Assembly: GCF_900258515.1 (NCBI RefSeq)
Contig: NZ_LT984884.1
Location: forward strand, 1,225,681 to 1,289,680
Origin: Lentibacillus sp. Marseille-P4043
GTDB lineage: Bacteria > Bacillota > Bacilli > Bacillales > Amphibacillaceae
Length of the DNA: 64,000 bases
Direction of reading: 5' to 3'
The notes beneath the pieces are model-generated. The model was given only the letters and a program-made list of their open reading frames with translations. It was not told the origin of the DNA and did not search any database. A program made the translations under genes and the position numbers. Of this stretch, positions 13,439 to 14,423 are shown in pieces (position 1 is the first letter of the stretch; each line of letters begins with the position of its first letter).

Positions 13439-13475
13439 TTGACTTTTTTATTATCTATGCGTACAATGCTTATTG
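13439..13475 (+). promoter_or_regulatory. pyrG promoter with GGGC start site
   Basis: TTGACT (13439-13444), a 17-base spacer and TACAAT (13462-13467) form a near-consensus sigma-A promoter 12 bases after the rpoE stop. Eight bases after the -10 box the expected transcript begins GGGCTC at 13475. In B. subtilis the pyrG transcript begins with the same GGGC run, where RNA polymerase stutters and adds extra G residues when CTP is low. Confidence 0.8.
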
Positions 13476-13527
13476 GGCTCTTTAAATTAGAATTCAAAGC
13501 GTTCCCCCTAATTGGGGGAACGCTTTT
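13475..13527 (+). promoter_or_regulatory. CTP-sensing attenuator (pyrG leader) with terminator
   Basis: About 21 bases after the predicted GGGC start, AAAGCGTTCCCCC (13496-13508) pairs with GGGGGAACGCTTT (13514-13526) over a five-base loop, followed by T and C. The upstream arm is the C/U-rich strand that a run of added G residues at the 5' end can pair with, which would break the terminator. This is the arrangement known for the B. subtilis pyrG leader. The hairpin also serves as the rpoE terminator. What is unusual is that pyrG itself begins only at 14,424. Confidence 0.75.
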
Positions 13528-13538
13528 CGTGTTTTATA

Positions 13539-13630
13539 ACAAAAGCGGAAGTGCCTGTTTAGCGACGTACTGACTGTGTCCAGGGACTGCGATTACTCTC
13601 GTCCCACTGAAAACCTTTGCCAAGCAGGGT
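13539..13630 (+). repeat. AAAGCGGAAG repeat joined to GGGACTGCGATTACTC repeat
   Basis: AACAAAAGCGGAAGTGCCTG and TTTAGCGACGTACTGACTG match the ends of the element at 18,413-18,650. It runs straight into GGGACTGCGATTACTC and GTCCCACTGAAAAC, which also open the composites at 6364 and 54,207. It is thus a junction of two repeat families. The stretch 13,631-13,843 that follows is AT-rich with no gene or repeat that I recognise. Confidence 0.6.
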
Positions 13631-13843
13631 GGTTCGGTGTTGTTGTCCGATTTGCTACTTTTAAAACACACATTTTAAAGAGAAACTTAACATGTTACAC
13701 GTTTAAATAATGTGTTATTACACACATTATATGGTAATTATACTTTTTAAGAATGAACGAATAACACGCACGATAGCGGAAGGCTCCTTTCATAAAATTT
13801 GTTGCTTTTTAATTTCGTAATTAATATAAAATGCGCACTAATT

Positions 13844-13966
13844 ACCGCTACGGAAATACACTTCGCTTTCCGGGGGCGGCTGTTGAGCCTCCTCGTGCTG
13901 ACGCACTGCGGGGTCTCACCGATGCCTCTCATCCCCCAGGAGTCTCCGTGTATTTCCTCCGCTGGT
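13844..13966 (+). repeat. Palindromic core repeat, forward copy upstream of pyrG
   Basis: ACCGCTACGGAAATACAC at the left and GTGTATTTCCTCCGCTGGTA at the right are inverted ends. CTTTCCGGGGGCGG, TGAGCCTCCTCG, TGCGGGGTCTCACC and CCAGGAGTCTCC are the shared inner motifs. It is the direct-repeat partner of 12,289-12,414. Confidence 0.8.
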
Positions 13967-14023
13967 ATTACATTTACTACCATTAGCCGTAGTTGTAAGT
14001 GTCTATAAGCATTCCTATCATTT

Positions 14024-14350
14024 CACTAGTCCGGGTGAGTGGAGGGTGGTGACTCCTTGAAAATACAGACCGATTTTCTGCGTGCGATGTATCGCTGACG
14101 TAGCCTTCCTTGTCCTGCGGGAACAATGGTTTTCGGTGGGGCGAGTTAGCGCAGCCCCAGCACGTGTCCGAAGACCCCGCAGGAAGTGGTTTTAAAAGGA
14201 GGGTCGACTAAAACCGTCCTTTGCGGACAACGTCGACATACCCCTCGCCGGGGCAAGGAGGCTGAGGCCGTGCCCGCGGAAAGCATCCACCCGGAACGAT
14301 CCCGGACGGTGGTAAATGCACATACTTATAGAAAAGAGCCCAGCAGTTAT
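14024..14350 (-). repeat. Palindromic core repeat, reverse copy upstream of pyrG
   Basis: Same order of motifs as 12,472-12,700, with an added inner block (14,055-14,165: AAAATACAGACCGATTTTCT, TGCGATGTATCGCTGACG, GCCTTCCTTGTCCTGCGGGA, GGTTTTCGGTGGGGCGAG) that also occurs in the copies at 23,450 and 54,650. It ends CATACTTATAGAAAAGAGCC. A downstream tail GAAAACAGCC at 14,393-14,402 is shared with 7150 and 54,854. Confidence 0.75.
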
Positions 14351-14423
14351 GTCGCATTTTATATCTATTAAGTCAAAAGCAACAATTTATAAGAAAACAG
14401 CCTAACAGAAAGAGGGATGGGTA

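Follow-up and report, generated by a model that had tools for sequence, protein, structure and literature searches.

A MITE-like element and a short repeat between a putative CTP-responsive attenuator and pyrG in Lentibacillus sp. Marseille-P4043

For the pyrG attenuator of Bacillus subtilis, the closest described counterpart of the locus presented here, two papers give a CTP-sensitive mechanism of reiterative transcription (PMC4403831; PMC4448216). High-copy intergenic repeats are known from the Bacillus cereus group. The MITE-like repeats bcr1 to bcr3 of this group are often found in untranslated regions or in operon gaps, and 84 out of 165 and 62 out of 155 intergenic repeats of two B. cereus strains were part of an mRNA (PMC3446304).

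The locus resembles the B. subtilis attenuator (Rfam RF02371) in having its own leader with a promoter, a start in a run of Gs and a terminator before pyrG, and differs from it in that approximately 0.74 kb of inserted repeats lie between the attenuator and the gene. The larger of the two inserts is like bcr1-bcr3 in being high-copy, intergenic and MITE-like, a likeness drawn from their description; unlike these repeats, its copies are located between attenuator and gene at four loci. A third described entity, the Bacillaceae-1 RNA (RF01690), matches a module inside several copies of the element, although this module is only one part of an element of 623 bases and the pyrG copy remains under the gathering score. 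Among open-licence papers, covered mostly at the level of listings, none came up that describes a MITE lying between attenuator and gene, which is a weak negative.

We regard it as probable (roughly 0.75) that a conserved pyrG attenuator leader of the Bacillales received a MITE-like element and a short repeat in its downstream, non-sensing part, and that the switch still controls pyrG. The features of the locus are given below in coordinates of the window, that is, the whole stretch of 64,000 nucleotides that was analysed.

12290..12700, plus strand: further copy of the element body, partial, located ahead of rpoE and in the same orientation as the copy in the pyrG gap
12885..13427, plus strand: rpoE, RNA polymerase delta subunit, with HARE-HTH domain and acidic tail (PF05066, E 7e-10)
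13439..13467, plus strand: predicted pyrG promoter TTGACT-17-TACAAT (TTGACT 13439-13444, TACAAT 13462-13467), 10 of 12 consensus positions, pattern shared by all 30 leaders read
13475..13480, plus strand: GGGCTC, predicted start and G-stutter site, from sequence
13496..13539, plus strand: predicted attenuator terminator with 5' arm AAAGCGUUCCCCC, 3' arm GGGGGAACGCUUU and T-rich tail
13540..13654, both edges approximate, strand not assigned: short repeat insert, pieces of which recur elsewhere in the genome
13655..13780, plus strand: probably native leader spacer, resembling the spacer of Lentibacillus populi
13781..14403, plus strand: MITE-like element of 623 bases with the ends AGGCT/AGCCT, from family comparison
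13781..13835, plus strand: left inverted repeat arm of the element
14192..14254, plus strand: Bacillaceae-1-like motif within the element, 30.4 bits and thus below the gathering score of 35
14353..14403, minus strand: right inverted repeat arm of the element
14407..14416, plus strand: ribosome binding site of pyrG, AGAAAGAGGG, native; in close relatives pyrG is preceded by a similar motif
14424..16028, plus strand: pyrG, CTP synthase, 534 amino acids, GTG start, frame open throughout

The promoter, the GGGCTC and the C-armed terminator right after rpoE had been proposed in an initial annotation of this DNA, and their coordinates proved correct, as did the distance of 949 bases from GGGCTC (13475) to the GTG of pyrG (14424). 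The terminator hairpin (13496-13526) has 13 pairs, 8 of them G-C, a loop of five bases and a T-rich tail. It was the one terminator-like site in a simple scan of 13300-14500 (mean of shuffles 1.2), and four promoter-like sites were found in the same region (mean of shuffles 1.8). The RNA fold of 13474-13545 has an energy of -26.8 kcal/mol (z -4.6), which was equalled by none of 200 shuffles. With a rough weight matrix for promoters of the sigma-A type, the pyrG promoter scored 12.0, compared to a median of 6.0 and a highest value of 13.7 in 1000 random stretches of 113 bases. By itself this score is good and not extreme, and conservation is the stronger proof.

Of 41 genomes with pyrG (the present one and 40 relatives), 30 were read (the present one and 29 relatives) and 11 were left out. 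The promoter pattern and GGGCT follow an upstream frame with an acidic tail in all 30, with the present genome included; in the relatives this frame was taken as rpoE from its tail and position. GGGCT lies 38-58 bases after the upstream stop codon in 29 leaders and 117 bases after it in one. In 23 of the 30 a script identified a simple stem with a C/U-rich 5' arm. In the other seven leaders, all of them distant (L053, L054, L055 and L057-L060), this script chose the wrong stem; their stutter values were disregarded, and their C-rich terminators were read by eye. Because promoter and start are found in the present genome as well as in 29 relatives, TTGACT-17-TACAAT and GGGCTC after rpoE represent an old, conserved pyrG leader.

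The Rfam model PyrG_leader (RF02371) gives this leader 28.9 bits, where 65 would be needed to reach the gathering score, and a search of the whole genome with the profile yielded no match at E 0.001. None of the 20 relatives tested, out of the 29 read, reached the gathering score, while B. subtilis as the control did; the model may therefore be narrow, and its gathering score is a cut-off of the model and not of the mechanism. The annotated likeness to the B. subtilis leader, which likewise follows rpoE and starts in a run of Gs, is fair in its parts and does not extend to the model score. The present leader has a promoter of the sigma-A type followed by a run of Gs and then C, a terminator arm predicted to pair with extra Gs, and a place directly before pyrG at a distance widened by the inserts. 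Judged by its sequence, it stands where a pyrG attenuator stands and would work like one; membership in the Rfam family is not claimed, and the CTP response is putative. By analogy with B. subtilis, transcription would start at GGGCTC.

The gap between rpoE and pyrG amounts to 999 bases including the start codon and is the longest of the 30 genomes (others 162-852; L. populi 240). It had been annotated as 0.9 kb of inserted repeats. Inserts are indeed present, although not as one block: by sequence comparison, the foreign DNA comprises approximately 115 and 623 bases, and the approximately 126 bases between them look native. Other genomic copies match 13533-13576 and 13557-13619 in the region of the short repeat, and the short insert (13540-13654) has no likeness to the spacer of L. 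populi (score 12.0; shuffles 13.2). The stretch 13655-13780 reached a score of 31 against this spacer (G002, taken as L. populi), compared to 16.5 +/- 2.6 for shuffles with none of 500 as good, and showed a weaker likeness to the spacer of a further genus mate, G001 (16 of 500 shuffles as good). The element is absent from the pyrG gap of both genus mates, and its 3' end lies three bases upstream of the ribosome site. The comparison with relatives had been set beforehand as a check, and its outcome is that the leader is present in relatives which lack the repeats. This supports an insertion of the repeats into the downstream part of an ancestral pyrG leader, which is one of the two possibilities originally put forward.

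We further report that the element-body copies at 12290-12700 and 13845-14347 flank rpoE in direct orientation and are 86-98% alike in parts. Recombination between them would delete rpoE and, along with it, the promoter and the attenuator of pyrG.

The inverted repeat ends of the element comprise 55 and 51 bases, which are 76% alike at the pyrG copy, and AGGCT-like ends occur in many copies of the family. For the body (13840-14350) at least 99 matching pieces were counted in the genome (40 of 168 candidates scored), and the annotated repeats of the gap are thus real and of high copy number. The whole element has at least 118 matches (40 of 199 candidates scored), compared to 10 and 5 in two genus mates. 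Sixteen copies with both ends span 173-807 bases. For a target duplication of six bases these copies give 64 matches out of 96, with 41.1 expected (0 of 5000 permutations), and duplication lengths of 3-5 and 7-10 bases had no such effect in the same copies. If two mispaired rows (L094, L096) are kept, the numbers become 74 out of 108 compared to 47.3. The matches per copy range from 0 (L107) to 6 (L101, L103), and the pyrG copy has four out of six; the duplication is supported for the family and weak for the pyrG copy alone. The longest listed frame wholly within the pyrG copy comprises 69 amino acids. With its inverted ends, a duplication of fixed length, short size, many copies and no transposase gene, the element can be classed from its sequence as MITE-like. 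Weak partial matches to it occur in six plasmid records.

Over the window plus 40 additional stretches we counted 48 element clusters of at least 150 bases; genes were called by a simple script. The clusters occupy 27 tandem, 12 convergent and 8 divergent gaps, with one at an edge and none inside genes; control gaps of at least 60 bases in the same DNA were 73 tandem, 9 convergent and 20 divergent. Convergent gaps are thus over-represented among the element gaps (Fisher p 0.010).

A further aspect of the family arises from the Bacillaceae-1 model. Four matches to this Rfam 'sRNA' at gathering score lie inside element copies, namely at 6977-7043 of the window (in the copy 6364-7160) and in L091, L109 and L110, and a fifth (window 23233-23299) is near a partial copy and outside of it. 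In this genome Bacillaceae-1 has the appearance of a repeat module. In the same part of the window a weak match to an L31 ribosomal protein leader occurs at 22906-22938 (35.2 bits, cut-off 33.3), and a partial repeat (23447-23598) lies downstream of it.

Gaps of more than 500 bases between rpoE and pyrG were examined in four of the 29 relatives (G004, G040, G028 and G024). In two of them the gap contains a high-copy repeat, with 51 matches in a genome taken as Amphibacillus sediminis (G004, L051) and 58 matches in G040 (L054). The gap sequence of G028 has one weak second match in its genome, and that of G024 has none. The spacer of G040 shares a module of 87 bases with the present element (78% alike, E 5e-13), and no common module was found between the G004 repeat and the element. 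As high-copy repeats are found there in two other genera, the stretch from the attenuator to the ribosome site accepts inserts in more than a single lineage.

Scanning the 40 stretches with Rfam models revealed three more attenuators with an element copy between switch and gene. The gene names alaS, pyrB and pyrR are deduced from domains and position.

L097, 2249-3084: Guanidine-I riboswitch, element, SMR gene, from Rfam and domains
L101, 2251-3205: T-box, element, alaS, from Rfam and domains
L107, 3299-2541, minus strand: PyrR site, element, pyrB, from Rfam and domains

The guanidine riboswitch copy has the duplication TTCTTA, which includes the terminator tail (read by eye), the T-box copy has TTATTT, and in the pyrB copy a duplication was looked for and none was seen. 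The distance from the end of the T-box to alaS is 52 and 56 bases in G001 and G002 compared to 747 in the present genome, and the alaS and pyrB leaders of both genus mates contain no element. In these two genomes the PyrR site adjoining pyrB is below the Rfam cut-off and the listed sites lie further upstream; the pyrB terminator is evident on inspection, with about 80-105 bases between it and the gene. The idea that leaders as such are special targets of the element was not supported: known leaders occur in 5 of 48 element gaps and, among the 102 control gaps, in about five (Fisher p 0.29), the control count being rough since some of its five leaders are near stretch edges. The five element gaps, counted by hand, are those of pyrG (under the Rfam cut-off), L097, L101, L107 and L084, where a cobalamin riboswitch shares the gap with an element and does not have it between itself and the gene.

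A terminator-like hairpin with a T tract is found directly outside 10 of 58 element ends, compared to 46 of 1500 intergenic positions drawn at random (p 1e-5), and at 4 of 26 ends in a second set of loci that was fetched after the idea had arisen (p 0.008). At least two of the ten ends (L083, L115) are doubtful by eye. The hairpins were determined by folding, and the 1500 positions, out of 64,734, were unmatched for distance from gene ends, so that selection against other sites could yield the same excess. At pyrG it is the short repeat that adjoins the terminator and not the element. We tentatively suggest, at less than even odds, that the family prefers to land immediately downstream of the T tract in intrinsic terminators, by which attenuators would become natural targets. 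At least four sensors (CTP attenuator, guanidine riboswitch, T-box and PyrR site) might have been split from their genes in this way; the copies would be transcribed only upon read-through at the sensor, and a self-closing fold would make such long leaders tolerable.

For the pyrG locus a course of events can be proposed along the lines of B. subtilis. Transcription would begin at GGGCTC. With sufficient CTP the RNA would fold the terminator (13496-13526) and the polymerase would stop; if CTP is short, the polymerase would stutter on the Gs, and the extra Gs could pair with the CCCCCU arm such that the terminator fails. In agreement with such a pairing, the part that ends at the loop, with a predicted fold energy of -3.9 kcal/mol, reaches -19.0 kcal/mol via CCCCCU once six Gs are added to the start, an energy gain matched by 1 of 500 shuffled bodies. 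The equilibrium model still prefers the finished terminator with nine extra Gs (0.97), and for this reason the switch would have to act during RNA synthesis. The pyrG switch of B. subtilis does act while the RNA is being made.

A polymerase that escapes would pass the spacer and the element into pyrG and leave an untranslated leader of about 0.95 kb, and most pyrG mRNA would stem from the native promoter. All inserts lie 3' of the complete sensor part, and the ribosome site is native. A polymerase past the terminator should continue into pyrG. In a fold prediction of the element RNA its two ends pair with each other (-225 kcal/mol, z -5.8, 20 shuffles). This pairing might produce a closed domain and leave the switch upstream as well as the ribosome site downstream free. 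Against this course speaks that the untranslated RNA could be open to a Rho stop or to cutting by RNases. That the attenuator still works and the pyrG mRNA carries the long leader is the most likely reading.

Two other readings are less favoured. The one already raised at the outset is that the repeats brought or created a promoter, inside the inserts or at their junctions, which drives most pyrG mRNA and leaves to the attenuator the control of a short RNA. A candidate exists with TTGTAA-17-TATCAT at 13993, the best promoter-like site in 13540-14424, whose score of 9.5 compares to 12.0 for the native promoter. This value is below the 95% point of the null (10.8), and in the last 160 bases before pyrG the same rough matrix found nothing above the null (5.4 compared to a median of 5.1). 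Among 33 copies spanning the site, TTGTAA is kept in two and TATCAT in one, and thus the family as such does not seem to carry this promoter. Of 30 spacers, the present one included, a single one, from the relative L043, contains a site that exceeds its own 95% null, which is approximately the expectation by chance. The repeat-borne promoter at 13993 is not supported, and we consider a new promoter in general unlikely; the inserts hold no convincing promoter and no convincing intrinsic terminator. Still less probable, and in our opinion very improbable, is that the inserts weakened pyrG to the point that its expression relies on read-through from rpoE, or that they mark a decaying regulatory unit. 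The gap of 999 bases, compared to 240 in L. populi, could be read in this sense. Against it, pyrG has an open frame, a single match in the genome and a ribosome site, the promoter and the terminator resemble those of relatives, and read-through from rpoE would be hindered by the attenuator terminator that sits between both genes.

A variant that is compatible with a working attenuator is rather doubtful, yet less so than these two. The leader made from the native promoter may be cut in the element or at its end, with RNase III acting on the paired ends as one candidate, which would place the mature 5' end at about 14403 while the attenuator still sets the amount. Elements similar to this one are processed in other bacteria, and the predicted domain closed by the inverted ends would offer a substrate, although a fold prediction over about 600 bases is uncertain. 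If a processed 5' end were found near 14403, this alone would not indicate a new promoter.

Taken with the three other loci, the insertion at pyrG provides natural experiments in which attenuators of four well-known kinds, all in one genome and presumably working, have a transposon-like insert of 0.6-0.7 kb between switch and gene. They would reveal what amount of foreign RNA can follow a terminator switch without disabling it, and whether small mobile elements favour terminator tails when they insert.
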